A stretch of DNA of 64,000 nt from Hypomesus transpacificus (lineage: Eukaryota; Chordata; Actinopteri; Osmeriformes; Osmeridae). Numbering within the stretch: position 1 is the first letter of the stretch; every line of letters begins with the position of its first letter. Below the pieces are notes generated by a model. It ran no database searches. It had not been told where the DNA came from and saw nothing but the letters and a program-made list of their open reading frames with translations. The position numbers and the translations under genes are program-made. Shown here one piece after another: positions 6,300 to 64,000 of the stretch. The stretch is taken from the NCBI RefSeq assembly GCF_021917145.1, contig NC_061078.1, positions 6,045,386 through 6,109,385 on the forward strand. The letters run 5' to 3'.

Positions 6300-8068
6300 A
6301 TGAATGATCCAGTGGACAATGACCTGTTTGACATTCCAGACTTTGAGCAAATAGAGGATGAGTCCTTTCCTCCGCTCCCTCCACCCTTCTCTCCTGGAAA
6401 CGCAGAAGACCCTTTTGCTAACGGTGAGTCAGTCTACCTGTGCAGATCTGCCATGCCAGCTTCAGTGCCCAGGATTGGTCAGGAAAACACGATGGATGGA
6501 TGTTGTTGGAGACTGTCTGGTAATCAAGGCGTGTCCGTCGTTGGTTTTGGCTTATTATGTTCAGGAGAGCAGGACGTGGACACGTCCAAGCTGGCGGAGG
6601 TTCCTGCTGCCAGACGGAGAGGCGTTAAGAGGCCCCAGCCCAAACTAGATTCTCAGAGGTAGAAATACACCACAACACGATCTCTAAGTTAACCACCTTT
6701 GACTAAGAGTTGCTTTTACTCTTTAGGACGCTTGTGGAGGAGAAATTTAAAACTTCTTTTTAGAATACCTTTTACATACAGGCTACAGCTCTTTCTGCTT
6801 CTTTAACTCAAATGAAATATATTTACAGATGTAAAAAAATGCTGAAAATAACATTATTTGCTTCCAGACTGACATCTGAAAGAGGCCTTCCGGCTCTACG
6901 CAACTTGTTCAACAACATTCACTTCAGAGGCAAAGGACATGAGGTGAGAACATACCTGGTTACCACTGCTGCAGGACCCAGACATACCTTCAGTACTTTC
7001 TGTATTTGCACTGTTTATGTTAAATGAAAGTGTGAGCTACATGAAGGCATGTGGGATGTTGAGGTGTTGATGGTGCTAGTGTTGCAGGCAGAGGACCTGC
7101 ACACGCTCATGCAGCGCATGGAGAACTGGGCCCACAGGCTGTACCCCAAGCTGCCCTTCCCAGACTTCATAGACAAGCTGGAGACACTAGGGAGCAAGAA
7201 GGACGTGCAGGTGAGCTGGAGTATTTATTACAGGAAGACTTAATATGGTCTGTTAGAGGGGTACACAATGTAACTATTTGTGACCTTCTAATTCCCCAGA
7301 CCTGTCTCAAGCGAATACGATTGGACATGCCAATCACTCATGAAGATTTCATTGGTAAAGACATACAAACGCCATTCCAAATAGAATAAATGGATTCTAG
7401 TTAATACTGCACATGTTTACAGTTCTGAGCATGAGCAGTATGTACTAGTAACAATAATCCGGATAGTTGTGTAACAGCTCATGTCGTCCTCGTCCAGGTG
7501 ATCAGGAAAAGGCAGGGCTGGATCAAGAGGATCGTATCCACAACAACATGGATCCTTTTGAACGTTTTCCTGAAGATGCCCTGGAACAGGTCCCTTCTAC
7601 CCCCGCCCTCTCCTCTACCCCCGCCCTCTCCTCTACTCCTATCCCCGCGCTCTCCTCCACTCCCGCCCTAACAGAGGAACAGCAACAACGCATCAGGCAC
7701 AACAAGCAGCTGGCTCTGGAAAAAAGACTGGCCCTCATGCAGCAGAAAACAAGTAGGTATCTCTATAGGAGTAATTTGGAGACATCTATAGGAGTAATCT
7801 CTATAGGAGTAATATGGAGAAATCCCAATAGGAGTAATATGTAGGCTCATGCTGTCAGCAGGGGGTGCAGCAGCACCCTCAGCAAACCTAACACTAGTTC
7901 CCCTGGCCATGACCGTAGGTATCTGTAGGAGTACTACGTAGGTATCTCTATAAACTACTGTGAGAACCTGACCTCTCGGCCCCTGACCTCTCACCCCCAG
8001 ACTCCCCCACAGGATCCCAGGTTGTCTCCAGTCAGCAGCAGCAGCACGGCGGAGAGGATCAAGAGTGA
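6300..8068 (+). CDS. tipin: TIMELESS-interacting protein (Tipin), Swi3 family
   Basis: Tipin pairs with Timeless in the nuclear fork-protection complex, which stabilises stalled replication forks and helps activate Chk1 (family knowledge). Seven coding exons join in frame to 264 aa: 6300-6423, 6565-6658, 6868-6943, 7088-7210, 7300-7354, 7498-7752 and 8001-8068, all with GT/AG junctions. The start is the first ATG after the acceptor at 6285 and gives the acidic N-terminus [17 protein letters not shown] typical of the family. The Swi3 domain spans about residues 65-155 ([64 protein letters not shown]). The C-terminal part holds a low-complexity STPALS repeat (about residues 190-210) and a basic stretch ([20 protein letters not shown]). 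It is shorter than the human protein of about 300 aa. It is convergent with dis3l. The last exon is inferred from frame and acceptor. Confidence 0.95.
7753..7950 (+). repeat. Short degenerate repeat in tipin intron 6
   Basis: Directly after the exon-6 donor, phrases such as TCTATAGGAGTAAT recur about four times. The donor-like word GTAGGTATCT reappears at about 7915 and 7938. It is a weak, degenerate array touching a splice junction, similar in style to those in dis3l. Confidence 0.5.
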
Positions 8069-8362: not shown

Positions 8363-8580
8363 GTCATATGTATTTACTTTGCCAGCAGTGTACTTGGGTG
8401 CATGGTTAACTTGACTGAGTGGTAGAAAGCTAAAACTGGTCTGACTCAACTATCAAACTGTACATTTCAAAACCCTATCCTAGAAAATTGTCCACACATT
8501 TTACAAAAATTATTATATTAAAACTCTGTGCAAGATAAAGTCTCCCCCACCTTGCAGAAAGTTTGAATGTTCAACCTGGG

Positions 8581-8632
8581 CCCCCCAGGCTACAGGGCCC
8601 CCCAGGCTACAGGGCCCCCCAGGCTACAGGGC
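8581..8632. repeat. Triplicated stop-codon region of dis3l, 17-bp unit
   Basis: Three tandem copies of a 17-bp unit. On the minus strand each copy reads CCCTGTAG followed by CCTGGGGGG, so the terminal codons and the TAG stop of dis3l are repeated twice more just downstream. Confidence 0.85.
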
Positions 8633-11600
8633 GAGTGCCTGCAGAGCCAGCTCCCGGACCTCCTCCAGGACAGAGTAGAGGCTGGGACGGGCCGTCTGGC
8701 AGAACTGCCTCTCATCCCTGGAGAGCCGAGGGCCCTTGGCCTGCTCGTCCTGGGCCCGCTGGGACGCCTCTGCCTGGAGGAGCACCTCCTGGACCAGCTG
8801 GGAGCGCCCCTTTGGCTGGGGCTGGAAGGGCTGGGGCTGGGAGGGCTGGTGGGGCTTATTGCTAACCACTTCCAGGTGGAGGCTGTCTGAGTGGCAGCGT
8901 GAAGCCTGGACAGAGATGCGGACCTGGGAAACACAAACGATCATGCTCATCAGTCACTGGACTGGGTTAGGGTTAGGTACCCCTATATGGATGAGTAAGG
9001 ACAGCTGGGGATGGGTGTAACTCATTACTTAACTGCAGATCAAGAGGTCAAAGATTCAAACCCCTCCCCATCACTTTGGATAAAAGCATCTGCTAAATAA
9101 CCATGTTATTCTTGCGTGACTAGTGAGGTTAGGGTTCGAAGATAAAAGGTGACTCACGGTGATGTGGTTAAACAGCTGGAAAGTGGAGGTACCAGAGGAG
9201 GTGGAGGTGGAGATGTGGTCAGGGTAGCGGTGGACCGAGCCGCTGTCCCACTCACAGCCTCCATCTCTCCTCAGCCTCAACACCAGGCCCTCGCGGCTCC
9301 TCACGTACACCGCCCCCTTCAGGCCATATCTGGGAACAACAGGCTGTTAGCATTGTAACTGTAATAATAACAATAATAATGTGTTAAAATGCTCAAATTT
9401 AAAGCAACGTTCAGGAGAGGATTTGTGACCTTCTGATCCTGAGTCAAATTTTCTACATGACACTATGTAGAGGTAACAAACTACTACTCATATTATTGTT
9501 TTTATTGATTTTATGTAAAGCACCTTGAGCTGCAATTCTTGTATGAAATTTGCTTTATAAATAAAGTCTTATTATCCCCACCCATGTGTCTGTTGAATGT
9601 AGCAGCAGATGTGTGGTGCTTACTGGGGCACGAAGACCAGCATGCCGTTGGCTCTGATGGCGTAGACGATGGCATCGGAGAGGCAGTCTGGGTCTGTCTG
9701 AGGGTCCTTGTCTCTGAAGTACAGACTCTGGAACAGCTCTGTGGACTGCTTCTGGGCCCGCTGTGCTGCCTTGAGACACAGGGACACATCAGTGGGTGGG
9801 GTATAAAGGGATATAAAGATATGTAGAATAGTTTTGAATTATTTCAGAAGCCTGGAAACAGTCGGCCTGGGCAGCTTCCTGGCCAATTAGACAAGACTTT
9901 CACATTCTTCATTAAGCACATACTGGAATCCAAATTAATATACAGATTAATAGAAAGTATAGCAGAAGGTCAAGGAACAAGGGTTACAGCAACCTAACCC
10001 TAAGTGCAACAATAACATCTCAGCTACAATTAATATCCCATAGAGGGCAGCCTAAACAAGGTCATACAACATTAGTATGCGTCAGTATGACTCCTCCTCA
10101 CTCTGTTCTTGTTGTTGATTTGATGAGCCACTTCCTCCAGCTCCTTGTTATTGGCCCGGGGTTTGACAGGCCCCACCCCCTTGTCCTGACTGATTGCAGC
10201 GATAAGCAATCGGTGGACAATTATGTCGGCATAACGACGGATAGGGGAGGTGAAGTGGGTGTACCGGTCCAAAGCAAGACCTGAAGGAGACATGGTACTG
10301 GTGTTACTGTAGTGATAGTACTGGTGTTACCGTAGTGATAGTACTGGTGTTCCCGTAGTGATAGCACTAGTGTTCCTGTAGTGATAGTACTGGTGTTACT
10401 GTAGTAATAGTACTGGTGTTCCCGTAATGATAGCACTACTGTTACCGTAGTGATAGTACTTGCGTTCCTGTAGTGATAGTACTGGTGTTACTGTAGTGAT
10501 AGTACTGGTGTTCCCGTAGTGATAGCACTAGTGTTACCGTAGTGATAGTACTGGTGTTCCTGTAGTCATAGTACTGGTGTTCCCGTAGTGATAGCACTGG
10601 TGTTACCGTATTAATAGTAGAGGTGTTCCCGTAGTGATAGCACTAGTGTTACCATAGTAATAGCACTAGTGTTCCCGTAGTGATAGCACTAGTGTTACCG
10701 TAGTGATAGTACTGGTGTTCCCGTAGTGATAGCACTAGTGTTACCATAGTGATAGCATTAGTGTTCCCGTAGTGATAGCACTAGTGTTACCGTAGTGATA
10801 GTACTGGTCCTGAGGGCAGGTTCCGGTGCAGAAGTACAGAGCGTTGGACATGGCTTGCGTGGCCATCATCCTCAGCAGGCGGTTGAACTGAGGGTCCTGG
10901 GGGTCCTGGGCCAGGGTTAGGGACTCAGCCAGGCTCTGGTTGGACCTGAGGGACAGCTACTGTTACACCATGGTACTGCTGCAGGACAGCTACTGTTACA
11001 CCATGGTACTGCTGCAGGACAGCTACTGTTACACCATGGTACTGCTGCAGGACAGCTACTGTTACACCATGTTACTGCTGCAGGACAGCTACTGTTACAC
11101 CATGTTACTGCTGCAGGACAGCTACTGTTACACCATGTTACTGCTGCAGGACAGCTACTGTTACACCATGGTACTGCTGCAGGACAGCTACTGTTACACC
11201 ATGTTACTGCTGCAGGACAGCTACTGTTACACCATGGTACTGCTGCAGGACAGCTACTGTTACACCATGGTACTGCTGCAGGACAGCTACTGTTACACCA
11301 TGGTACTGCTGCAGGACAGCTACTGTTACACCATGGTACTGCTGCAGGACAGCTACTGTTACACCATGGTACTGCTGCAGGACAGCTACTGTTACACCAT
11401 GGTACTGCTGCAGGACAGCTACTGTTACACCATGGTACTGCTGCAGGACAGCTACTGTTACACCATGGTACTGCTGCAGGACAGCTACTGTTACACCATG
11501 GTACTGCTGCAGGACAGCTACTGTTACACCATGGTACTGCTGCAGGACAGCTACTGTTACACCATGGTACTGCTGCAGGACAGCTACTGTTACACCATGG

Positions 11601-14600
11601 TACTGCTGCAGGACAGCTACTGTTACACCATGTTACTGCTGCAGGACAGCTACTGTTACACCATGTTACTGCTGCAGGACAGCTACTGTTACACCATGTT
11701 ACTGCTGCAGGACAGCTACTGTTACACCATGGTACTGCTGCAGGACAGCTACTGTTACACCATGTTACTGCTGCAGGACAGCTACTGTTACACCATGGTA
11801 CTGCTGCAGGACAGCTACTGTTACACCATGTTACTGCTGCAGGACAGCTACTGTTACACCATGGTACTGCTGCAGGACAGCTACTGTTACACCATGGTAC
11901 TGCTGCAGGACAGCTACTGTTACACCATGGTACTGCTGCAGGACAGCTACTGTTACACCATGGTACTGCTGCAGGACAGCTACTGTTACACCATGGTACT
12001 GCTGCAGGACAGCTACTGTTACACCATGGTACTGCTGCAGGACAGCTACTGTTACACCATGGTACTGCTGCAGGACAGCTACTGTTACACCATGGTACTG
12101 CTGCAGGACAGCTACTGTTACACCATGGTACTGCTGCAGGACAGCTACTGTTACACCATGGTACTGCTGCAGGACAGCTACTGTTACACCATGGTACTGC
12201 TGCAGGACAGCTACTGTTACACCATGGTACTGCTGCAGGACAGCTACTGTTACACCATGGTACTGCTGCAGGACAGCTACTGTTACACCATGTTACTGCT
12301 GCAGGACAGCTACTGTTACACCATGGTACTGCTGCAGGACAGCTACTGTTACACCATGTTACTGCTGCAGGACAGCTACTGTTACACCATGGTACTGCTG
12401 CAGGACAGCTACTGTTACACCATGTTACTGCTGCAGGACAGCTACTGTTACACCATGGTACTGCTGCAGGACAGCTACTGTTACACCATGGTACTGCTGC
12501 AGGACAGCTACTGTTACACCATGGTACTGCTGCAGGACAGCTACTGTTACACCATGGTACTGCTGCAGGACAGCTACTGTTACACCATGGTACTGCTGCA
12601 GGACAGCTACTGTTACACCATGGTACTGCTGCAGGACAGCTACTGTTACACCATGGTACTGCTGCAGGACAGCTACTGTTACACCATGTTACTGCTGCAG
12701 GACAGCCACTGTTACACCATGGTACTGCTGCAGGACAGCTACTGTTACACCATGTTACTGCTGCAGGACAGCTACTGTTACACCATGTTACTGCTGCAGG
12801 ACAGCTACTGTTACACCATGGTACTGCTGCAGGACAGCTACTGTTACACCATGGTACTGCTGCAGGACAGCTACTGTTACACCATGGTACTGCTGCAGGA
12901 CAGCTACTGTTACACCATGGTACTGCTGCAGGACAGCTACTGTTACACCATGGTACTGCTGCAGGACAGCTACTGTTACACCATGGTACTGCTGCAGGAC
13001 AGCTACTGTTACACCATGGTACTGCTGCAGGACAGCTACTGTTACACCATGTTACTGCTGCAGGACAGCCACTGTTACACCATGGTACTGCTGCAGGACA
13101 GCTACTGTTACACCATGTTACTGCTGCAGGACAGCCACTGTTACACCATGGTACTGCTGCAGGACAGCTACTGTTACACCATGTTACTGCTGCAGGACAG
13201 CCACTGTTACACTACGGTGCTCCTAAGTGCCAAGGCCTGCTGCACTGCGAACTGGCTGTGGATGTTCCCTGGAGGGAGGGGTTACCTGGTGTCGATGCTG
13301 AAGCCCCTGGCCTTGGCGCTGTCGATCAGCTGGCTGAAGGCCTGCTGGCGTGGGGGCGGGTGGTGCCGCAGCAGGGCCTGCTGGGGGAAGCTCTCCTGGA
13401 TCTTACGCGCCACCCAGTGGTTGGCGAAGATCATGCACTCAGCCACGGTCTCATGCACCTCGAGGGGCTGGCGGGGCACCAGGGAGGAGATGTTCCCCTC
13501 CTCGTCCAGCTGTGCCTTCACCTGCAGCACCAGGAAACCAGGTGATGTTATCTGATGCAGCACGCAGGTTAGGGTGGTACCCTGGTGATCAGGTTAGGGT
13601 GGTACCCTGGTGATCAGGTTAGGGTGGTACCCTGGTGATCAGGTTAGGGTGGTACCCTGGTGATCAGGTTAGGGTGGTACCCTGGTGATCAGGTTAGGGT
13701 GGTACCCTGGATGGTGATCATTAGAATTGTCTTTCTTTTCTTGCACAAACCATAACTCATAACCAGGCCCAAACAGAATGCCGGCGCAGAATTCAGACGA
13801 AAACTCGCAGATTTTCAAGTAGAATGCATTGGTCTGAGGCAAAATGTAAATACACTTTTCAACTCATATTACGTCTCTATTATAAATACCTTCAAACGTA
13901 TTATAAAAAAATTCTACAAATTGAAAAGGAAACATTTATCGACCCAAATTACAGCAAGAGACAGGGCCAGGGAGTTTTCAGTCGATCATTATGGGGATGG
14001 ATCAATACTTTTTTGCAAAGTCTGTCAACATTCAACCATATTTGCCGTCAAAATGTTGTGGAACATCTTCGGTCGCTCCGACATAAGAACAGGAAGGCTA
14101 GCGGAATTCTGCAGATTTCCGGTCTGAATAACCGCAGAAAATGTGAAAAAAAACGTATTATGTTTGGGCCTGCTCATAACTCATTTTGGTTTTGAATGGG
14201 TTAGGGATAGGTGCTGTCACCGCCTAAGACTTTTGGTCGTCACTGTAGCCAGAAACGCATTCCACAAACAAAACAGAATGAAACCTCGTACCCACCTCCA
14301 CCCCCTCCAGCTCAAGCGCCCCCCCTCTGTCCCTGCGAGCCCGCAGGTGCCTGGCTATGCGTGTCAGGGTCTCCAGGTCCTGGGTGAGCCGGGCTAGTCT
14401 GGTGTCCCTCTCTGAGGGCTCGATCTGGGCCAGCTCTAGTACCTGGCCCCCCTCCCCCTCCAGCAGGCTTTGGGCCAGCTCATAGTGGAGCTGGTAGCAG
14501 GAGCGGATGATGCTCCGGCCGTACCACACGCTCTGCACCTCCAGGGTGTGAGAGTCCAGCTCCCACAGCACGCTGACCGCATACCTGCACACAGGGTGAC

Positions 14601-17600
14601 ACCACTATGTATACCACATGTACCACCACATGCATTGTGCATGTGCATTATGGAAGTGACGTTAATTGGATACCCAACATCAGGGTGTTGTCATGGATAC
14701 CCGACAGCAGGGTTTGTAGAAGAGCTGGCTCACCTGTCAACCCCTCCCAGCAGGGAGCACAGGTCTGCACTCAGCACCGCAGGAAGCATGTCATACCTGC
14801 GGTCTGCCAGGTAGTAGGTGGTGGCTCTGGGGAGAGAGAGAGGGGTCAACGGGAGGAAAGAGGAGATGGGAATGACCACCCTCCTCCTCCTCCTGCCTGG
14901 GGCAGCCTCCTACCTGGGGCAGCCTCCTACTTGGGGCAGCCTCCTACCTGGGGCAGCCTCCTACTTGGGGCAGCCTCCTACCTGGGGCAGCCTCCTACCT
15001 GGGGCAGCCTCCTGCCTGGGGCAGCCTCCTACTTGGGGCAGCCTCCTACCTGGCGCAGCCTCCTACCTGGCGCATGCCTCCAGGTCGGTGAGGTACCCCT
15101 CGGGTACGAAGTGTGTGACATCAGCGATGTGGACCCCCAGCTCCAGCCTCTCTCCCCCCAGGCTGCGCACCGACAGAGTGTCGTCAACATCCTCGCAGCC
15201 CAGCGGGTCGATGCTGAACACCAGATGAGACTCCCGCAGGTCCCGCCTGGAAGCTTCCTGCTCTGGGTCCACCTGCCAGGGACGCTCCGGAGAACTGACC
15301 GGCATCTCCCGCAGCTGGACACACACACGCAAGGTTACACACACACATACACACATTCACACACACATACAGTGTTCCTCACTATGCAAACCTGACAGTT
15401 GTCTAGTTTAGGTTAGTTATGCTGATCTGTAGCTTGACAGTTCACCAGCCTCTGGTCCTGACCTGGGCATCAGAGAAGGGGGCCAGGTGGATGCCGTTCT
15501 CTATCAGGATGGTCTGAACTTCTGTCTCTAGCTCCCCCACTCGCCCCAGGACCCGCACCATGTGACCGCTGGGGTACAGGGATGTACTCTCCCACGAGTC
15601 CATACGCACCACCACCCTGTGGTCCTGGAGCCACAGGACAGGAGGAAGAGGAGCGGAGGAGGTTAGACAGGGCAGGAGAAGAAGAGGAAAAGGAGGTTGG
15701 ATGGAGCATGGGAGGAAGGAGCTTTACAGAGCCAGTGTTAGCCTGTTACTGAAGGTAGCAGGCTAGGCAGTGAGAAGGCTAGGTAGTGTTAGCCTGTTAC
15801 TGAAGGTAGCAGGCTAGGTAGTGAGAAGGCTAGGTAGTGTTAGCCTGTTACTGAAGGTAGCAGGCTAGGTAGTGAGAAGGCTAGGTAGTGTTAGCCTGTT
15901 ACTGAAGGTAGCAGGCTAGGTAGTGAGAAGGCTAGGTAGTGTTAGCCTGTTACTGAAGGTAGCAGGCTAGGTAGTGAGAAGGCTAGGTAGTGTTAGCCTG
16001 TTACTGAAGGTAGCAGGCTAGGTAGTGAGAAGGCTAGGTAGTGTTAGCCTGTTACTGAAGGTAGCAGGCTAGGTAGTGAGAAGGCTAGGTAGTGTTATCC
16101 TGTTACTGAAGGTAGCAGGCTAGGTAGTGAACTTGTGGGACCTGCAGTGTCTCGGCCTGCTGGGTGCTGATCCTGATCTTGGGGATGCGTTCGTCCCAAG
16201 GAATCGCCAGGATACGCTGGGAGGTCCTGCTCTGTGATTGGCTATCTTCCCGGGGGGGAAAGGTCACCACGTAGTCCCTCCAGTTTCTCTGGAGGACGCC
16301 CACCACTCTTCCTGCGGGAGAGGGGGGGACAGATTGAGAGGAACAACTCAACAGAATCTGTGTGTGTTCATGTTAGTTTTTGTCTGCACAGGTGTGTGTG
16401 TGTAGATGCTTGTGGGCTGCCATCGTACCTGTCGGCATGGGCTGGCTCTGGGCCTCTTCTCCGCTCCCCTCTTCCCCCTGCTGATCCGTCAGGGCAGTTG
16501 TCCTCCCCCTCCACTCACTCCTCGGCAACAGCTCCACAACGACCACGTCGTTATGCACACCTCGGTTACGGTTCTTAGCTCCACACACCAACATGTCCGT
16601 ATTCAGCTCTGGGATGGAGGGAGGGAGGAGAAGAGAGGAGAGGGGGAGAGAAGGAATGATGGATAAATTAGAGAAGGAGAGGATGAAAGAAGGAGAAAAG
16701 AGAAAGGTTAATGAACCACAAGATAACCCAACATTAAATTGTATTCATCTAGCAGGCGGTTTCATCCGAAGCATGACACCAGGTGAAGAGTTACCTGTGT
16801 TCTTGTTGGAGGCGTCCATCCTTAGGAAGGCCTCGTGCTGAGCTCTGTGCCGGTTCACGCTCAGCGTTCCCTAGGAGGCACCGGGAGAGCAGACGTCATA
16901 TACACGTGACTACGCCAACCCTGACCCCACGTCAGGTTTGAACTTCCTTTATCTGCCACTTAGCCTTGAATAAGGAAGTGTCTCAGCAAGTATTAATACT
17001 GACAACCAGGGCTCCAGGAAGAAGGTCAAATATAAGAGCTGCTTGTTTATCTACTTTCTAACTCTGGTTAAATACATTTAATGCTGGGTACACACCACAA
17101 GATAATCGGGCTGATTTTGGGTCGATTTCCCCCTTCCAACAATCCTAGGTTATATTATCTATCGGGACATTAACTACAGTGTATAGTGTAACTGAGACGA
17201 CACAGTAAATAATTCCTCTTTCAATAAACCCCTGTTCCAGTGTTGAGCGTTAAATTAGCTGCACGGTCTGTAGAGATCTTGGGACGAAGCCACCTTTTTG
17301 TTCTAAAACCGGGCTATACGCCGCTTCGAAATAGAAGCCGTACCACCACAAAATAAACTGTAAAATCAGGGTACAAGCCGCAATTTTATTTCCAAAAAAT
17401 ACAGTAGGTAATGAGTCACCACTGTTCCCATGAAATCAGAACTCCCAAGTTGGGATCACGTCGTCGTCTGAACCTTGATCTACTCTTTAGACGCACACCC
17501 GCTCTCTCCATCACACCAACCTGGAGGAATCTTCCGGACTTGATGCCAGCCTCCAGGATCTCGGCAGGCAGGTGGTCGACGTACTCCCTCTCAGAGCCCT

Positions 17601-19801
17601 CACCCCCTCTCTCCTGCAGAGCCTGGGCGATTGAGCTGTACAGCTCCTGGGCAGCCAGCAACTCCGGCCAGAAGGTCCTGAGGTAGTCCTGAGGAAGGAG
17701 TCAAATGCCGTTGTGTCCTTGGGCAAGGCACTTCACCCTACTTGCCTTGGGGGCAGTGGCGGTTCTGGCACATTGTGCGCCCAGGGCGAGTTGATACAAC
17801 CTGGCTACGGCAAAGGAAAATGAAACTCCTCCACGGCAAGCAGGGGTGCCTGCAGCTGCCTGAAAGGGGCGCCAATATGCCATTTCCCCACTAACTGAAA
17901 TGATCGATAAGAGAAAACCGCGCAGATATTTCGATTTTTTAATGCTCGTGCGCCCCCCACGTGACATGAAAAAATGCGGGCGGCTGCCCGGTCTGCCCGT
18001 GCCTACAACCGCCCCTGCTTGGGAGGAAGGTCCCTGTACTTACTGTAAGTCGCTCTGGATAAGAGCGTCTGCTAAATGACTAAATGTAAATGTAGAGGAT
18101 AGAGAATGTGTGGGTGTACCTGTGTGGAGAGGATAGAGGATGTGTGTGTGTGTTACCTGTGTGGAGAGGATAGAGGATGTGTGTGTGTTACCTGTGTGGA
18201 GAGAATAGAGGATGTGTGTGTGTGTTACCTGTGTGGAGAGGATGTGTGTGTGTTACCTGTGTGGAGAGGATGTGTGTGTGTTACCTGTGTGGAGAGGATG
18301 TGTGTGTGTTACCTGTGTGGAGAGGATGTGTGTGTGTTACCTGTGTGGAGAGGATGTGTGTGTGTTACCTGTGTGGAGAGAATAGAGGATGTGTGTGTGT
18401 GTTACCTGTGTGGAGAGGATGTGTGTGTGTTACCTGTGTGGAGAGAATAGAGGATGTGTGTGTGTGTTACCTGTGTGGAGAGGATAGAGGATGTGTGTGT
18501 GTTACCTGTGTGGAGAGGATAGAGGATGTGTGTGTGTGTTACCTGTGTGGAGAGGATGTGTGTGTGTTACCTGTGTGGAGAGGATAGAGGATGTGTGTGT
18601 GTTACCTGTGTGGAGAGGATAGAGGATGTGTGTGTGTGTGTTACCTGTGTGGAGAGGACATACACTCCACAGTGGAGGCTGCTGTACTCGGCCAGTGCAG
18701 CCTGGTCCTCAGTGATCATTACAACCGGCTTCAGACCAGCCAGGTGGTCATGGTACCACACCGCTGCATGGTACACGCACCTGCAGACACCCCCCCCCCC
18801 AAACACACACATGCAGCACACACACAAACACAGACAGCACCCAGAACCATATTACAGGGGGCAGAAAATCAACTGTGGCTGTACTAACCTCTCAATTACG
18901 TTTCATGTTGTGGTCTCAGTGTGAGTGAGATACAGTAGGCAGCAGGTAAAGTAGACAGGTATCACACCTGGTCTGCCACCTGTCCTGTGTCTCCCCCTTC
19001 TCCCTGGGGCAGTAGGAGTACTTCTGGAACTCGTTAGCAAACAGCACACAGTCGTAGCGGGGGTCCTTCAAGAGCCCGCGCAAGCGGTTGTACTGCCTGT
19101 TCAAAACATCAACCATCACTCTTACTTGTAAAAGTTAGGAGTGACATCACTGACACTTGTAACAGTTTAGGAAAGAACCAGCCAGGTGTAAAGATGTCAC
19201 TGTACCTGCGCCCGCGGCTGTGTTGTACCGAGTGACAGGCGGTTTGCGTGAGAACAATTCCCTGGAGCTCTCGAAACTCCAGGACCTCCAGATAATCACG
19301 CAAAACCCCCGCGTCAGGGACCACGTAGTGAGTGACTTCTCCAGAAAGCACCTTGCCATCTACTTGCACCAAAACAATAATGTTGATTGATAATCTTTAG
19401 TCACAAACCAATCAAATGCCAGGTATTTTCTCTTATTCGTTGGTTTTCTTACAGATTACTGTAAGATATTTGATGATTTTATTGTAATATTAGTACATTA
19501 GCTAGTTACAATAAGAATGTGAACAGCCATGAACACGCGAATAGTCTATATTTCAAAATGCATCTGGACATGTTGCTAGTCCTTGCTACCCCTGGTTGGA
19601 CCAACAAGCAAGCTATCTAGCAACGTTTAGTCAAGTAACGACAAATGTTTTAAGGATTAACGCTACGGTACCGTTGGCACAGCCTGCCTGACAGAGAGTG
19701 CTGTAGCAAGGAACATGCTCTCTCAGATAATGTTCTCTAACCACACGAACTTTCCTGCCTCGGGAACTCTTGAGATGCAAAATCTTTTCCGTCTTAATCA
19801 T
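8624..19801 (-). CDS. dis3l: DIS3-like exonuclease 1, cytoplasmic RNA exosome nuclease
   Basis: DIS3L is the 3'-5' hydrolytic exoribonuclease that joins the cytoplasmic exosome (family knowledge). Eighteen exons join in frame to 1040 aa (human about 1054): 19801-19672, 19359-19206, 19096-18968, 18780-18645, 17688-17521, 16870-16795, 16608-16429, 16311-16142, 15624-15463, 15314-15067, 14826-14734, 14584-14296, 13521-13286, 10945-10791, 10280-10102, 9769-9624, 9329-9158, 8923-8624. The order is PIN-like domain (exons 1-4), cold-shock domains (about 5-9), RNB (10-15) and S1 (16-18). RNB metal ligands are present in [10 protein letters not shown] (about residues 471-480), followed by [19 protein letters not shown]. 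The PIN domain is reported as inactive in this family. The start is the ATG giving [12 protein letters not shown]. The acceptor of exon 2 is TAG, as are those of a few other exons. Six introns hold minisatellites, several built from its own splice junctions. Confidence 0.96.
9020..9106 (+). mobile_element. SINE fragment in dis3l intron 17
   Basis: A tRNA-like stretch (ACTGCAGATCAAGAGGTCAA, then GATTCAAACCC, a B-box-like word) is followed by the L2-type tail GGATAAAAGCATCTGCTAAA. The 5' part is missing. Confidence 0.6.
10290..10803. repeat. 23-bp minisatellite built on the dis3l exon-14 donor
   Basis: About 22 copies of a 23-bp unit fill nearly all of intron 14 (10281-10790) and run into the last 13 coding bases of exon 14. 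On the minus strand the authentic junction is CTATCACTACG|GTAACACTAG, and the units repeat this word. Some units keep GT at the junction position; others read GG (CACTACGGGAACAC), which destroys the donor. Confidence 0.9.
10951..13216. repeat. 33-bp minisatellite, 68 intact units, at the dis3l exon-14 acceptor
   Basis: The word GGACAGCTACTG recurs every 33 bases from 10951. The start at 13195 is exactly 68 x 33 bases later, so there is no indel in the array; a degenerate 69th unit follows. Units differ at one position (ATGGTACTG or ATGTTACTG), plus a few GCCAC variants near the 13.2-kb end. The two types occur in patterned blocks, implying duplication of multi-unit segments. It fills most of intron 13 and ends 5 bases from the authentic acceptor. 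On the minus strand each unit ends GTAGCTGTCCTGCAG, against GTAGCTGTCCCTCAG at the real acceptor. Confidence 0.95.
13563..13712. repeat. 25-bp minisatellite in dis3l intron 12
   Basis: About six copies of a 25-bp unit containing CAGGTTAGGGTGGTACCCTG lie about 45 bases upstream (in transcript sense) of the exon-13 acceptor. The unit includes a telomere-like TTAGGG word. It is not an obvious copy of the junction itself. Confidence 0.85.
13764..14172. mobile_element. Non-autonomous hAT-type transposon with BED-finger remnant
   Basis: The 409-bp element begins CAGGCCCAAACAGAAT and ends with its near-perfect inverted copy (ATTATGTTTGGGCCTG). A perfect 8-bp target-site duplication, CTCATAAC, flanks it at 13756-13763 and 14173-14180; this is the hallmark of hAT insertions. 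Inside, plus-strand frames contain LFCKVCQHS and, after a frame change, [14 protein letters not shown]. This is the C-x2-C ... H-x4-H spacing of a BED zinc finger like that at the N-terminus of hAT transposases and CGGBP1-like proteins. It appears to be a deleted derivative of a coding copy. It sits in dis3l intron 12. Confidence 0.85.
14887..15075. repeat. 17-bp minisatellite built on the dis3l exon-10 donor
   Basis: Ten tandem copies of a 17-bp unit follow the authentic exon-10 end. On the minus strand the junction is GCGCCAG|GTAGGAGGCT, and the units repeat it as GCCCCAG GTAGGAGGCT. About half of the copies carry a change exactly at the splice position (CCAA|GT or CCAG|GC). The array occupies most of the 240-bp intron 10. 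Confidence 0.9.
15730..16136. repeat. 51-bp minisatellite in dis3l intron 8
   Basis: About eight copies of a 51-bp unit (contains GTGTTAGCCTGTTACTGAAG and GGCTAGGTAGTGAGAAGG; start-to-start spacing 51 at 15736, 15787, 15838) end a few bases from the exon-8 donor. Copies are almost identical. Confidence 0.9.
17697..18094 (+). mobile_element. tRNA-derived SINE split by a later insertion
   Basis: The left part (17708-17753, TGTGTCCTTGGGCAAGGCAC and CACCCTACTTGCC) and right part (18018-18094, ACTGTAAGTCGCTCTGGATA, then CTGCTAAATGACTAAATG) are the body and tail of the same SINE family seen at 35218-35403. They are separated by the hAT-type element at 17754-18017. It lies in dis3l intron 4. Confidence 0.8.
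17754..18017. mobile_element. hAT-type MITE nested in a SINE
   Basis: The 264-bp element begins CAGTGGCGGTTCTGGCAC and ends with the inverse (GTGCCTACAACCGCCCCTG). Flanking octamers are CTTGGGGG and CTTGGGAG, a 7/8-matching 8-bp target-site duplication. No coding sequence is seen. Confidence 0.82.
18107..18660. repeat. Minisatellite built on the dis3l exon-4 donor
   Basis: Sixteen copies of a 27-37-bp unit precede (on the plus strand) the authentic junction. On the minus strand the real site is CTCTCCACACAG|GTAACACACA, and all but the outermost copy keep CCACACAG|GTAAC intact. Length variation comes from an optional ATCCTCTAT block and a variable AC run. Confidence 0.92.
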
Positions 19802-21695: not shown

Positions 21696-25891
<4,196 letters not shown>

Positions 25892-27215
25892 GGTGGGTCT
25901 GGGAGCAACTAGCTCTCTCTGGTCACACAAACACAGCCTGCTATCAGAACCAACTCCTCACCCTAATGTCACCCTCAGGCCTGTCTCATCCTCTCATCTG
26001 TGTCTGTCCTAATGTCTTCATAAGCTATGTGTGTGGGATTGCACAGAGAGACTTGTAAAAGAAAACCACTGAATGTTTCATACTGTGAATGAAGCATATA
26101 GTGTCTATGTGCTTGCAAAATAAACGTATTTTCAACAACTTGAAATGTTCATGTTAACTGGTAATGACAGTGTTTAACTTTTCCCTCTGTATCATCAGAT
26201 ACCACAGATGAAATCCTTAGACTCACGTACAAGCAGTGCAGGTGTCCTGTGCGCTCCAACCCTAACCCTAACCCTGCAGGTGTCCTGTGCGCTTCAACCC
26301 TAACCCTGCAGGTGTCCTGTGCGCTCCAACCCTAACCCTAACCCTGCAGGTGTCCTGTGCGCGCCAACCCTAACCCTAACCCTAACAGCAGTGCAGGTGT
26401 CCTGTGCGCTCCAAACTCAACACCTCATCATGTGACTCTCCCACTCACGTGTCAGCATCATAAATACAGTTCAAAGTTCTAGCTTGAGATTCTAGTCTCA
26501 TTTCACCCACTTATAACCCACACTAACGCAGAACACAATGAGAGACAGAAAATACACAAACTTGTCCAACACAGTCAGTATGAGCGACATGGTAAACCCA
26601 AGTTGAGAGCCGTACAGAATTTCCAAATCCAAAATTAGAAAAATGAGAAAGTATAAACCAATCCCTCGTGATGAAGCTTGTTCCCCTTGCCAGCGTCTGT
26701 CCTCCTCTGTCTTTTTCTCCAGCGCCCGCCCTCCCACCACAAACACATGCATACCTAAACCATGTCCTGCGTTGGTCCACAATGAAACAACTGCAAAGCG
26801 TAGAGAAAGCTCTCCAAGGTTCTGGACCTAGTTCATTCTTACTCTGGGGCAGGTTGGCACTGACAACGAAGCATCCAATAGATTGTCTGCTATTCAGGGG
26901 CCCCGAGTGAACACATTGATCCAAACACTCTGCCATTCAAACCCAACTGAGTGGAAACGTAATCTGCGAAGGCAAACAGATCTTTTGGAAATGGGACAGG
27001 ATTCTGAAACTGTAAGCAAAGTTCATGTTAGTGATGTGTGTGTGGGGTAGGGTGGGGTGGGCATAAGTTGACTGTGTGTGTTTGGATGGGTTAACTGTAG
27101 GTGGGGGCAAAGGTAAAACATTTACATATGTATTTACATACCAATACATTTTGAAAACGATGTTGTAAAATGAGCTTTATCCCTTGTTTTTATTGTTTTA
27201 TTAATTTGTCTGTGA
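25892..27215. other. Intergenic between lctl and the crystallin
   Basis: Apart from the array at 26250-26412, the stretch shows no exon-like sequence. Open frames here match nothing I recognise. Confidence 0.4.
26250..26412. repeat. Minisatellite with telomere-like CCCTAA runs
   Basis: Four copies of CAGGTGTCCTGTGCGC followed by 2-4 CCCTAA hexamers. The number of hexamers varies between copies. Confidence 0.85.
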
Positions 27216-34831: not shown

Positions 34832-35152
34832 TATGGAGTCAGATTATGGTCAATAATAATTAGCAGGAGCAGAAAACGATTAGCAGGAGCAGAAAACGAT
34901 TTGCAGGAGCAGAAATAGATTTGCATCCGTAAAAAAAGTGTTTTGTGAATTATTTTTGCCAAACACTTTTTTAACGGATGCTTATCTTTTTCTGCTCCTG
35001 CAAATCGTTTTCTGTTCCTGCAAATCGTGTTCTGCTCCTTCAAATCTTGTTCTGCTCCTGATGAACGTTTTCTGCTCCTGCTAATCTTGTTCTGCTCCTG
35101 CTAATCGTTTTCTGCTCCTGCTAATTATTATTGACCCTAATTTGACTCCATA
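34832..35152. mobile_element. Small fold-back element with tandem-repeat arms
   Basis: Outer ends are inverted copies: TATGGAGTCAGATTATGGTC at the left, and its inverse ending TTTGACTCCATA at the right. The arms are arrays of about 22-bp units (GCAGGAGCAGAAAACGATT and its complement, TCGTTTTCTGCTCCTGC). An inner palindrome (CATCCGTAAAAAAAGTGTTT / AAACACTTTTTTAACGGATG) surrounds a short loop. TGAG flanks both ends, within TATGAG on the left. Its ends match those of the larger element at 36854-37885. Confidence 0.82.
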
Positions 35153-36853: not shown

Positions 36854-37885
36854 TATGGAGTTAGATTAGTTTCATAATTCAAACAAACAAACGCAACACG
36901 ATTCAAACAAACGCAACACGATTCAAACAAACTTAACACGATCCAAACAAACGTAACACGATTCATACAGACATAACACGATTCAAACAAACGTAACACG
37001 ATTCACAAATGTATTTCTTGATTCACAAATGTAACGCGATTCACAAATAAATGACCCTATTACATTCGTTTGCAACCTGACAAACACAAGTTACAAATCC
37101 CTGCATTCGTTGGTGTGAATCCTTGCATTCGTTCGTGTGGATTTTTGGAACTTTCCTGACGCGCTTTGATCCACAAATGCATTTTTTCTAAAAGATATCC
37201 TCTGCAGCCTATCAGATGTCTTCAATTTTAGCCAATCACCGGAGAATGTCTAATTGGGTAGACGGGCTCTGCGTTAGCCTAGGAAACACGGAAAATGACT
37301 AAACATGAATCCTGCCATTCTCAACAATATTTAATCAGGTGTGATCATCGGTTTAATAAGATTAACAAGCAATATTTCATCTACATGCTACCAGACGACA
37401 TTGCTCGTGATCTGAAGGAGACGATGTCCGTCATTATGGCAGGTTGTTGAAGTCCACATAGACACGTTAATGTGATTGGCTAAAATTGGAAGAGACGATC
37501 TGATAGGCTGCTGAGGATATCTTTTAGAAAAAATGCATTTGTGGATCAAAGCGCGTCAGGAAAGTTCCAAAAATCCACACGAACGAATGCAAGGATTCAC
37601 ACCAACGAATGCAGGGATTTGTAACTTGTGTTTGTCAGGTTGCAAACGAATGTAATAGGGTCATTTATTTGTGAATCGCGTTACATTTGTGAATCATGAA
37701 ATACATTTGTGAATCGTGTTACATTTGTTTGAATCGTGTTACATTTGTTTGTTTGAATCGTGTTGCGTTTGTTTGAATCGTGTTACGTTTGTTTGGATCG
37801 TGTTAAGTTTGTTTGAATCGTGTTGCGTTTGTTTGAATCGTGTTGCGTTTGTTTGTTTGAATTATGAAACTAATCTAACTCCATA
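36854..37885. mobile_element. Large fold-back element with about 400-bp inverted arms
   Basis: The ends are TATGGAGTTAGATTAGTTTC and its exact inverse. Each arm starts with 7-8 copies of a 20-21-bp unit (GATTCAAACAAACGTAACAC or complement). This continues as unique sequence (CAACCTGACAAACACAAG, CCTGACGCGCTTTGATCC, AAAAGATATCC) that is matched on the other arm through about 37250/37470. A central spacer of about 220 bases has no open frame. The hexamer CTTTTA directly flanks both ends (36848-36853 and 37886-37891), a perfect target-site duplication. The long composite arms resemble Foldback/Galileo-type elements. Confidence 0.88.
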
Positions 37886-40763: not shown

Positions 40764-43700
40764 CTAGCTGTCCTCCACCTCCAGCCTCCTCTGGGGAACG
40801 TAAACGGTTTTAGCGGTGGTTACCACGGTGGCCAGCGGGGAGAGGGAGACGGGGGTGTGGAAGAAGCTGTGCTGAGGGAGGCTCCTCCCTTTGGGCGTGG
40901 TCAGCAGGGGCTGAGGGGGAGGAGGGAACGTTAACAACACGTTAACAACACGTTAACAACAGTGTTTCCTGTCAACATGGCCAGCTGCAGCCTCAGCCCT
41001 GGATGATGTCACCCACTACGGGCTGACGTCTTGCACACCCAGAAAGTGCTTGTGTGGGTGTGTTTGTTTTGAGTCAGCATGTACCACTGTTTAAGCCGGC
41101 CTTCTACATCCACATGATATTCATACAGCAGAACAGATGATTACTCCATTATCACTCAAAGACTACACTAAAACAAAGAAGCAAACAGCAGTCTTACTTG
41201 CTGGAGGCTGATGAAGGTGAGGGGCTGGCCTGGCATGGCATGCTGGACTGGCAGGGGGGACATGGGTCTCACAAATACCATGCCTCTCTGGGGGAGGCTC
41301 AGATGGGGGGGCAGGGGGCTAGGCAGGGAGGGGCCCAGGTGGGGGGGCCGGGGGCTGGACAGGGAGGGACCCCGCTCGGGGGTGAGTACCTGGGGGGGTC
41401 CGGGGATGAGACCCAGGTTCTGCAAGGTGAAGTTGAGGATTGCGGGGCTGGGAGTGTGGTGGCCCTGGGGGTGGAAGGGGGAGGCTGGGGGGGCCCTGGA
41501 GGGGGGCAGGCCTGTGGGGGTGAACTCCTGCATGGGAGGAGGCTGGGAGCCTGGTGTGGAGAAAGAACAATGTTTAGTCAAACTGAAACCATTACTGTCT
41601 CATTCATTCAGCAGACAAACAAATAGTAAATATAGAAAGTACAATGGGGGTTTGGTAGATGCTGTAGGTGTGTGTGGGTACCTGCGGTGGGGGTGTGGTA
41701 GATGCTGTAGGTGGGGGTGGAGGTCCTGCTACCCTCTGTGCTGCTGGGACAGCCTGCTTCTCTGGGGCTGAGGACAGCCTGCTGGCTGAGGGGGATCAGG
41801 TAGCCTGTAGGGACCAGAGTCTGGACACACACACACCACCATCAACACACGCCCTCACACACACCATGTTGGTGGATCAACATTCTGGTTAGGGTGTGGG
41901 TTTGTCTCCCTGTGTGTGTGTGTTAGTCTACCTCTGGGTGTATATTTCCGGTTGTCAGGGGAACAGCTCTGACAGGAGTGAGGCCCGCCTCGCTGTCAGA
42001 TGTCGCAACCTTCTCCTCCTTCTCCAGGAAGGTTTCCACACTCTGCACCAGCGCCTGATTGGCTGCAGCGCTGCCAGGGGTGTTGAGGAATTCAGGGTCG
42101 AGGTGGAGGGCACGGGGTGAGGGCCGACTGGGTAGGAGACCGCCACGTCGAGCCTTCAGACGAGCCTGTAGGATCTCACACAGCTTAGGAGACGCATCCT
42201 GCACCAGCAGAGGAGAGGATGACGGGGAAGAACAGAGGAGAAAGAAGCAAAAAGAGAGGAAGAGTTAAAGATCCTGTAGAGTTCTTCAGTCTCAGGTTAA
42301 GTTCAGGTTGGTTACTGGCCTCTGTGATAAAAAAACAATATCAGGACAAGATAACGCTGACATTATGATATAATATTATGATGTTCTTTGATATCACTGG
42401 GTGGAGGTCTCACCCTGCAGCTGGGGTCGACCCTCCTGGCCTTGCAGGGGCTGCAGGCCTTATCTCTGTCTGCACACGCCCGCTTCAGCGCCGCAGGGCT
42501 GCTGGGGTCATGACCCCTGGAGGGCTGGGGGGACACGGCTGGCGACTGGTGGGCGGGCGGGGCCTTCCCCGGGCTGCGTCCCAGCCTGTCCTCGAACGTC
42601 ATGGAGCGCACTGCCAGGCTGGTGGGCTGTGGCCGAGCCAGGGGGTGTGGCCGGAGGGAGGAGGGGTGCATGTACAGGGCATAGGAGGCTGGCCCCCCGT
42701 GCTGGGGCAGCAGGACGGGGATGAGGGGCGAGCACTGGTAAGACAGCGACCCCGCAGCCTGGGAGGGATACTGCACCCTCGGGGGGAGAGGGGCAGAGGG
42801 GGGCTCGGCAGGGATCAACGCTGGGGTCTTGGGGGCTGCAGGGGCCGACGAACACTTCCCCGGCTTTGGGGGGGGTGCTGTCGCCTTGGAGACGGTAGGC
42901 TTAGAGGTGTGCTGTCCCTCCCTGAAAAGAGACATAGTGTGTTCAGCAGAAGCTTTCATTCAAAGTGATGTACAGGGGCAGGGCTTGAAATTGCGACCAT
43001 TTTTCTCCTGAAATTGTGTCAAAATATATATAATATAGGGGAGCTAACTAAAGCTACATGAATCTATAACATCATTTTGTGTTGTTGTGGTGCTCCTTTA
43101 TTTTTCGTGGGTGCTCTTCACTGAGCACCAGTACCACCAAGTAAAACATTTATTTTTCTTTTTTTTGACCTGTGATCTCCTGATCTGCAGTCAAATGCTC
43201 TAACCACTAAGCTTTACCCCCAGCCTCTCCACCTCAGTGTTGGATCTCAAGGACAAGGACCAGGAAGTTGGCCAAAAAGACAAACAAGCACATAAAGACA
43301 GATGGACAGGTTAAAAAAGCAGTTCAGCATGACATACATAGACTGCTGGTCAAGCTGAATCTTGCAGATGGCGGCTAGCTGAGCCATTTTGCTGGGAAAG
43401 AACCCGCCTCCTGAGGAACCATCTGAAAATCAGAAGCAGGTTTTAGTTTTCAGCTACATCCTCCAGACACCACCAGCTCACAGTTGTACACCTCCAGGAC
43501 TGACCCAGGGGGCCTCTGACTGGACTTGTTGGGGCAGAGTTGATCTTTCGCCGGTCATCCTGGATGCTCTTGGCCAGTTTGATGAGGGAGGGGTGTCTGG
43601 TGAAGGTGCGCTTGGCCCCGGGAGAGGAGAACAGATTTTTGGTGCAGTTATCCACTGACGCACAAGACTCCAGGATCCGCTTTGTTGTTGAGGCGTTTGA

Positions 43701-47797: not shown

Positions 47798-49800
47798 AAT
47801 TAATATGATATTACATGCTAATTCTATATATTGTGATGTATTTGTACAGTTTGACAATGTGTTTCATTCAAGGAAAGGTATAAATCCATCAAGAACCGGA
47901 GTTGTATGTTTCCTGGAGGGAGTGATACTTGTGAAGGAAGGAAATCACAAAGACTATCAAATGGAAATGAGACATGTCTACAGATGATCCAGTAAACCCA
48001 CTCTTCTCAGGCATCATGGTACGGACCACTCAAGGGCCTGGAATTATACTGTGTTGTTAACGACAGATGAAACCATTTGTTTGTGTCCAGAGTCAGACTG
48101 AGGGACACTGTGTGTTTCATGTTCTCATTCTGTTCAAAACAGTCGATATCAGCAAAGATAAGAACAAAGCTGTATTGAAATACATGTTCGCAAATGTCTT
48201 CAAAAGCAATATAGCCTACTGCACAAGTGTTTTCAGCGGGATACGCCCTCTGTAGAGAGGGGGCTGCAGAGCTGAAGAAGTGTATGGAGGAGAGGAGAAG
48301 GAGGAGGGATGAGGGGGGAAGCTGGGGTAGAGATTAAACTCATGACTGGCGAGTGATACCTGTGTCATCATGTGAATGTTAAGTGTGTATCTATTCTAAG
48401 TTTATACTTTCGGTTAGGTGTTAGGGCAAGAGAGTACCAGGGGTTAGGGTTAATGAGTCCCTAGTTTTGAAAGGTTAAAAAAATATCTTCAAAAAAATTA
48501 ATATGATATTACATGCTAATTCTATATATTGTGATGTATTTGTACAGTTTGACAATGTGTTTCATTCAAGGAAAGTGTGTTTCATTTCAGCGGGATACGC
48601 CCTCTGTAGAGAGGGGGCTGCAGAGCTGAAGAAGTGTATGGAGGAGAGGAGAAGGAGGAGGGATGAGGGGGGAAGCTGGGGTAGTGATTAAACTCATGAC
48701 TGGCGAGTGATACCTGTGTCATCATGTGAATGTTAAGTGTGTATCTATTCTAAGTTTATACTTTCGGTTAGGTGTTAGGGCAAGAGAGTACCAGGGGTTA
48801 GGGTTAATGAGTCCCTAGTTTTGAAAGGTTAAAAAAATATCTTCAAAAAAATTAATATGATATTACATGCTAATTCTATATATTGTGATGTATTTGTACA
48901 GTTTGACAATGTGTTTCATTCAAGGAAAGTGTGTTTCATTTCAGCGGGATACGCCCTCTGTAGAGAGGGGGCTGCAGAGCTGAAGAAGTGTATGGAGGAG
49001 AGGAGAAGGAGGAGGGATGAGGGGGGAAGCTGGGGTAGTGATTAAACTCATGACTGGCGAGTGATACCTGTGTCATCATGTGAATGTTAAGTGTGTATCT
49101 ATTCTAAGTTTATACTTTCGGTTAGGTGTTAGGGCAAGAGAGTACCAGGGGTTAGGGTTAATGAGTCCCTAGTTTTGAAAGGTTAAAAAAATATCTTCAA
49201 AAAAATTAATATGATATTACATGCTAATTCTATATATTGTGATGTATTTGTACAGTTTGACAATGTGTTTCATTCAAGGAAAGTGTGTTTCATTTCAGCG
49301 GGATACGCCCTCTGTAGAGAGGGGGCTGCAGAGCTGAAGAAGTGTATGGAGGAGAGGAGAAGGAGGAGGGATGAGGGGGGAAGCTGGGGTAGTGATTAAA
49401 CTCATGACTGGCGAGTGATACCTGTGTCATCATGTGAATGTTAAGTGTGTATCTATTCTAAGTTAATACTTTCGGTTAGGTGTTAGGGCAAGAGAGTTCC
49501 AGGGGTTAGGGTTAATGAGTCCCTAGTTTTGAAAGGTTAAAAAAATATCTTCAAAAAATTTAATATGATATTACATGCTAATTCTATATATTGTGATGTA
49601 TTTGTACAGTTTGACAATGTGTTTCATTCAAGGTATGAATGACACAGGTATTCAAGATACCTGTGTCATCATGTGAATGTTAAGTGTGTATCTATTCTAA
49701 GTTTATACTTTCGGTTAGGTGTTAGGGCAAGAGAGTTCCAGGGGTTAGGGTTAATGAGTCCCTAGTTTTGAAAGGTTAAAAAAATATCTTCAAAAAAATG
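47798..49800. repeat. 354-bp satellite: founder copy, three copies and a truncated copy
   Basis: The phrase TTAATATGATATTACATGCT starts units at about 47798, 48498, 48852, 49206 and 49559. The first unit is about 700 bp because it holds about 345 extra bases between CATTCAAGGAAAG and TTCAGCGGGATACGCC. The next three are 354 bp and almost identical; a few substitutions are confined to the last. The fifth is truncated and carries a new palindrome at 49639-49669. Each unit ends GGGTTAGGGTTAATGAGTCC. The 62-codon open frames inside look incidental. Confidence 0.93.
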
Positions 49801-63924: not shown

Positions 63925-64000
63925 TGGGTTAGGGTTAGAGTGTTCTGTCTCTGTGTTGGGTTAGAGTGTTCTGTCTCTGTGTTGGGTTAGAGTGTTCTGT
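63925..64000. repeat. 26-bp minisatellite running off the window
   Basis: GTTAGAGTGTTCTGTCTCTG plus TGTTGG repeats from about 63935 and continues past the window end. Confidence 0.8.

Follow-up and report, generated by a model that had tools for sequence, protein, structure and literature searches.

Three introns of the dis3l gene of the smelt Hypomesus transpacificus harbor minisatellites whose repeat unit consists of the final 14-18 bp of the preceding exon together with the 5' splice site. The gene is located on the minus strand of a 64,000-bp stretch of contig NC_061078.1 (NCBI RefSeq assembly GCF_021917145.1, positions 6,045,386 to 6,109,385), hereafter the window, whose numbering is used throughout; the array and exon features of dis3l and e2f8 given below are all on this strand. 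We consider it likely that the arrays arose by ordinary minisatellite birth in a repeat-rich genome and were tolerated where they straddled a splice donor. The original prediction made from this DNA had described four dis3l arrays built on splice junctions. The three at the donors of exons 4, 10 and 14 were confirmed, whereas the one at the 3' splice site of exon 14 was not.

Minisatellites spanning the 5' splice sites of dis3l introns 4, 10 and 14

The coding span of dis3l (8624-19801) comprises 18 exons encoding 1040 amino acids, as determined by a manual model and a spliced alignment of the Osmerus mordax DIS3L protein. With the exception of the stop codon, the exon edges of the manual model were identical to those of the alignment. 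Osmerus mordax provides the nearest named DIS3L among the matches listed (97% identity) and Osmerus eperlanus the nearest named E2F8 (92%, with an approximate query), and neither protein of the window is identical to these records. Repeats were identified with Tandem Repeats Finder, which returned 137 rows; merging at a period of at least 10 resulted in 74 arrays, and repeats of this class make up 22% of the window.

The array of intron 4 (18094-18658) shows copy spacings of 28, 35, 37 and 39 bp and a unit that spans the exon 4 donor CAG/GTAACAC, the slash marking the exon-intron junction. Its exonic part is the 14-bp tail of exon 4 (18645-18658, exon edge 18645), and the exact sequence CAG/GTAACAC occurs 16 times when the real donor is included. 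In intron 10, a 17-bp unit spanning the exon 10 donor CAG/GTAGGAGG is repeated 11.3 times (14889-15081), with the last 15 bp of exon 10 inside the array (15067-15081, exon edge 15067). The donor copies here read CAG/GTAGG in six cases, CAA/GTAGG in three and CAG/GC in two. The array of intron 14 (10295-10808) contains 22.3 copies of a 23-bp unit composed of the final 18 bp of exon 14 followed by GTAAC. The exon 14 tail is itself the first unit (10791-10808, exon edge 10791) and encodes the residues ..QYYHYG. This array fills 97% of its intron (496 of 510 bp). Counting the exon's own, it holds 22 full units, 11 with GTAAC and 11 with GGAAC, mostly in alternation. AG abuts GT in each CAG/GT copy of introns 4 and 10, while the junction of intron 14 is ACG/GT and not AGGT. 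The three donor-crossed introns have lengths of 240, 510 and 956 bp, and the arrays of dis3l reach into the exon by at most one unit (14-18 bp).

Comparison of the units with their flanking junctions, a check suggested along with the original prediction, confirmed that the exon tails match the arrays of all three introns. In a rank test, exon ends were compared with the array of the adjoining intron among 7679 exonic 24-mers, with arrays longer than 400 bp represented by their first and last 200 bp. Against the array of its own intron, the exon tail came first of 7679 in the case of introns 4 and 14 and 34th in that of intron 10. In a second test, termed copy test, the exon tail was compared with the first 150 bp and the exon head with the last 150 bp of the intron, using 173 control exon segments. 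None of the 173 control exon 20-mers reached the tail scores of introns 4, 10 or 14.

The copies do not represent coding additions, since neither 17 nor 23 bp is divisible by three and reading on beyond the donor leads to a stop codon after 76 nt in intron 4, 2 nt in intron 10 and 48 nt in intron 14. A possible exception is found in intron 4, where splicing at the second donor would insert 39 nt without shifting the frame. Judging from the spacings and stop positions, use of the other donor copies would lead to a frameshift or a stop. In the DIS3L protein of Osmerus mordax, although from another species, the sequence at the boundaries of exons 4/5, 10/11 and 14/15 corresponds to splicing at the exon-most donor of each.

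The exon is most likely the source and the intron the site of the copies, because residues of the exon tails are conserved among homologues; this reading is strongest for exon 14. Conservation was counted over 120 listed of 1880 DIS3L matches and 120 listed of 2021 E2F8 matches. In the exon 14 tail, H and G were identical in all 120 listed DIS3L proteins; of the three Y residues, the first was identical in 88, the second in 114 and the last in 116, and Q was identical in 114. In that of exon 10, identity was seen for L in 116, for E, the first A and R in 119 each, for the second A in 44 and for C in 4. For exon 4 the corresponding counts were 108 (Y), 116 (V), 97 (S), 106 (Q), 43 (T) and 15 (L).

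Outside dis3l, a diverged repeat crosses the donor at the exon 11/intron 11 boundary of e2f8 (41645-41720, exon edge 41682). It was absent from the claims of the original prediction and was identified by Tandem Repeats Finder together with the rank and control tests: the exon 11 tail ranked 19th of 7679 against the array, and 0 of 173 controls reached its score. Within this tail, Y was identical in 102, I in 106, the second Y in 104, the T, P, T, A and G residues in 116, 115, 115, 113 and 112, respectively, H in 21 and S in 11 of the 120 listed E2F8 proteins. A weak repeat of 2.3 copies also crosses the donor of e2f8 intron 10, where the exon tail did not reach p<0.05 against the 173 controls.

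Distribution of repeats around exon-intron junctions in five genes

All junction statistics refer to five genes within the 64-kb window, which together comprise 50 introns: dis3l, e2f8 (13 exons), lctl (13), tipin (7) and a crystallin-like gene (4). For tipin and the crystallin-like gene, proteins assembled out of the window served as the basis of the models instead of independent homologues, and in the latter gene one or more exons are missing at the start. From the tipin model a spurious 2-bp exon was removed; in lctl, an optional exon (22244-22288) was left out and exon 1 was shortened. A codon-usage scan of the region from 46 to 64 kb revealed no clear multi-exon gene, and the arrays there were excluded from the tests.

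Arrays cover 50.7% of the intronic bases of dis3l, 15.2% of those of lctl, 6.6% in e2f8, 12.1% in tipin and 59.4% in the crystallin-like gene. With regard to the earlier statement that introns of comparable size in lctl and e2f8 mostly lack such arrays, dis3l is thus array-rich but not unique among the five genes, and e2f8 intron 11 has a donor-crossing repeat of its own.

In the copy test, exon-end copies at p<0.01 were found at 4 of 50 donors (dis3l introns 4, 10 and 14 and e2f8 intron 11) and at 0 of 50 acceptors. At p<0.05 the numbers were four donors and two acceptors. The four-to-zero difference fits a lower tolerance of 3' splice site duplication, but is too small to serve as proof.

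Repeat cover amounted to 39% of intron interior bases, in a pool dominated by dis3l, and to 3.1% of exon interior bases. Five of the 50 donors and two of the 50 acceptors lay under repeats. Across the five genes, cover rose from exon to intron with no peak at the junctions; if each junction were covered like its own intron, 8.8 of 50 donors would be expected under repeats (sum of the per-intron cover) as compared to the 5 observed. A random-birth model was applied to 20 arrays, in which donor crossing is allowed and counted from an overlap of at least 8 bp. For the five genes, the model predicted 1.7-2.5 donor crossings, and 5 of 20 arrays were observed to cross (P 0.02-0.08). The corresponding numbers for the dis3l arrays were 0.9-1.3 predicted and 3 of 7 observed (P 0.04-0.11), and restriction to arrays with a score of at least 100 resulted in P values of 0.02-0.15. 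These P values flatter the claim of a junction preference, because the window was chosen for the pattern.

Taken together, the evidence on a junction preference is mixed, and junction-targeted seeding is weakly supported. One possibility raised in the original prediction was a process that seeds arrays at splice junctions; the lack of a cover peak and the five crossings against 1.7-2.5 under random birth (P 0.02-0.08) do not bear this out. Its other suggestion, tolerance of duplications that preserve a usable splice site, fits the finding of exon-end copies at four of the 50 donors but at none of the 50 acceptors (p<0.01), as well as the low repeat content of exon interiors (3.1%).

Origin of the donor-crossing arrays

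In the explanation that we favor, a short tandem duplication, produced by replication slippage or unequal exchange, would give birth to a minisatellite. Where such a duplication straddled a 5' junction, the exon-side copy would be kept under selection as coding sequence and donor, and the downstream copies, being intronic, would be free to multiply and drift. The gene would survive this event if the exon-most donor were always, or often enough, used in splicing. Duplications over 3' splice sites or inside exons would mostly be removed. Later growth may have continued until an array filled most of its intron, as in introns 13 and 14 (97% each), and as a consequence of such growth some arrays would come to lie near a junction without containing it. 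This explanation is favored by the repeat load of the window and its introns as opposed to exon interiors, by the mostly unrelated units of dis3l, by exon-end copies at donors but not at acceptors and by the conserved exon tails. The short reach of the arrays into dis3l exons, the lack of coding potential of most copies and the exon-most junctions of the Osmerus mordax protein point the same way.

Several observations weigh against this explanation. The asymmetry between donors and acceptors is based on few cases (4 versus 0), and the P value under random birth goes down to 0.02. Another null model placed the arrays as blocks at random within introns, so that crossing was impossible, and was applied to the 19 arrays that are at least half intronic, the e2f8 intron 11 array excluded. 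Under this model, 3 of 7 dis3l arrays contacted a donor versus 0.11 expected, and 4 of 19 did so in the five genes versus 0.23 expected. Acceptors were contacted at gap 0 by 2 of 19 arrays versus 0.23 expected (P 0.018) and approached within 10 bp by 6 of 19 versus 2.5 expected (P 0.02). As the donor copies counted in intron 4 do not differ from the real donor, competition and consequent mis-splicing might be expected. Finally, the tails of exons 4 and 10 are conserved only in part, L and T in the one and C and the second A in the other falling to the low counts given above.

A process linked to transcription or splicing, e.g., R-loops at GT-rich donors, could instead preferentially start duplications at 5' junctions. 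The excess of donor crossings under random birth, the far smaller P values under block placement, the exon-end copies at four donors versus no acceptor (p<0.01) and the involvement of a second gene, e2f8, all point in this direction. However, repeat cover does not peak at junctions and 5 of 50 donors are crossed where own-intron cover predicts 8.8; one of the five crossings, that of e2f8 intron 10, involves a weak repeat of 2.3 copies with an exon tail that missed p<0.05, and the sample is small and post hoc. We regard such a process as improbable. Similarly doubtful is the wider proposal that the 5' junctions of smelt are preferred birthplaces of minisatellites, in which rows of identical donors would be tolerated since the spliceosome picks the exon-most copy, and copies of exon ends would thereby turn into intron sequence.

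Recursive splice sites consist of an intronic AG followed directly by GT and are used stepwise. The repeated donors of dis3l might accordingly be functional, serving as tandem U1 sites or as recursive AG/GT splice points that tune splicing or expression of the gene. The 16 CAG/GTAACAC sequences of intron 4 (the real donor counted), the six CAG/GTAGG sequences of intron 10 and the position of AG beside GT would suit such a role. It is nonetheless very unlikely, given that the intron 14 junction is ACG/GT, that 11 of its 22 units carry GG in place of GT, that 5 of 11 units in intron 10 are no longer CAG/GT and that the introns are short (240, 510 and 956 bp). There is likewise only a slight chance that the arrays created the introns, as in the Rogers model, where tandem duplication of an exon segment gives rise to a new intron. 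While intron 14 is nearly all array (496 of 510 bp) and AGGT is present in the units of introns 4 and 10 (but not 14), the units are not wholly exonic as that model has it. They contain intron bases following GT that are lacking in the downstream exon; the intron 14 unit, for example, reads GGTAAC, and exon 15 starts with GTCTTGC. Because the units carry intron sequence beyond the GT, the donor probably pre-existed. An assembly artefact, finally, receives hardly any weight from us. Some arrays are near-identical throughout (intron 12 at 100% and intron 8 at 99%), but those of introns 10 and 14 vary between copies, in intron 14 with a patterned alternation. The array copy numbers come from one assembly and may be wrong.

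With head-to-tail units of about 10-100 bp located in introns, the dis3l arrays classify as minisatellites, three of them additionally including 14-18 bp of exon. The duplicated segment spans the exon-intron boundary in dis3l introns 4, 10 and 14 and in e2f8 intron 11. Comparable systems are considered here as far as they are described in excerpts of the respective papers. Intronic minisatellites of fish are found in introns 1 and 3 of the gilthead sea bream GH gene and in intron 1 of MSTN-2, the latter about 150 bp in size and located toward the intron's 5' end (PMC3045353). Like the repeats of smelt dis3l, they are tandemly arranged within introns of a fish. Inclusion of exon sequence or a donor is not mentioned for sea bream in these excerpts (PMC3045353), whereas the dis3l repeats contain both. 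In potato RdRp the duplicated segment crosses an exon-intron boundary and carries splice signals as well, but there a duplication over intron 1 and exon 2 produced a new intron, in contrast to the many copies at 5' junctions of probably older introns in dis3l (PMC4974935). Fission yeast introns built of short tandem units (24-nt) also match the flanking exon (PMC3629103). Those units are exon-derived with proto-splice sites and are described as intron gain in two orthologous genes (PMC3629103), whereas dis3l combines exon end and donor in three introns of one gene. The tandem repeat content of Nothobranchius furzeri (20.6%) resembles the 22% of the window at a period of at least 10, although its abundant minisatellites are centromeric families and the smelt window contains many unrelated units within genes (PMC2688266). 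Among titles and abstract openings of the open-licence literature, we found no report of one gene with minisatellites built on several of its splice donors. The same literature yielded no rules on which of several duplicated 5' splice sites is preferred, and none are relied on here.

With its 16 identical donors, intron 4 offers a natural experiment on the spliceosome's choice between equivalent 5' splice sites. Arrays that cross a donor furthermore illustrate a path along which duplicated coding sequence is turned into intron, and a donor bias, if true, would tell which splice signals tolerate duplication.

Other repeats in dis3l and the window

The array of intron 13 (10951-13212) consists of 68.5 copies of a 33-bp unit and fills 97% of the intron. 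It stops 5 bp before the exon 14 acceptor (edge 10945), and the exon 14 head ranked only 1998th of 7679 against the 400 bp sampled. The proposed amplification of the exon 14 acceptor was thus not confirmed, as the array falls 5 bp short of it and the sampled 400 bp show no exon 14 match. Two further repeats stop short of a donor: a 51-bp unit present in 7.8 copies in intron 8 (15734-16130, 11 bp from the exon 8 donor, Tandem Repeats Finder and rank test) and a 27-bp unit in 1.9 copies in intron 11 (14667-14717, 16 bp from the exon 11 donor). Intron 12 contains 5.8 identical copies of a 25-bp unit at a distance of 43 bp from the exon 13 acceptor (13565-13710). The stop-codon region is triplicated, as had been stated earlier: a 17-bp unit occurs in 3.2 copies with 100% match at 8578-8632, covering the stop codon and the start of the 3' untranslated region, with the coding sequence ending at 8624. 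The DIS3L C-terminus, ..LAL (8624-8632), is shared with Osmerus mordax and lies about 15-20 residues before the end in the four other fish proteins compared.

The similarity of repeat units was evaluated pairwise against a dinucleotide-preserving null with 100 shuffles. None of 21 dis3l pairs was similar at p<=0.01, so that a single repeat spreading among the introns is unsupported. Four of 21 reached p<=0.05, and the mean z was 0.58 for dis3l pairs versus 0.17 for the 609 other pairs, 16 of which reached p<=0.01. A cruder mononucleotide null, comprising seven dis3l units, one lctl unit and one e2f8 segment, returned p=0 of 300 shuffles for 4 of 36 pairs, three of them within dis3l. By sequence comparison the dis3l units appear mostly unrelated, with a slight unexplained excess of similarity. 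The original view that the units differ and do not reflect one spreading repeat holds at p<=0.01, though four pairs reach p<=0.05. TTAGGG-like arrays are present in introns and intergenic DNA at 22029-22186, 26237-26414, 63932-64000 and 13565-13710 (dis3l intron 12); the unit of the first array resembles those of the other three, with 0 of 100 shuffles scoring as high.

Repeats in coding sequence were observed in e2f8 exon 12, which contains an in-frame repeat with a 36-bp period (41296-41382), and in tipin exon 6 (STPALS.., 7596-7663). At 931 amino acids, the e2f8 model is longer than the Osmerus eperlanus record (919) by 12 residues, equivalent to 36 bp. Outside the modelled genes, a 354-bp unit is present in four copies with 99% match (48231-49633). 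A 1-kb stretch at 36877-37855 is bounded on either side by oppositely oriented tandem repeats of about 20 bp and encloses a further inverted pair (37096-37139 and 37576-37619); from its layout, it resembles a mobile element whose inverted ends are repeated. A similar inverted pair is located at 34859-34925 and 34979-35125.

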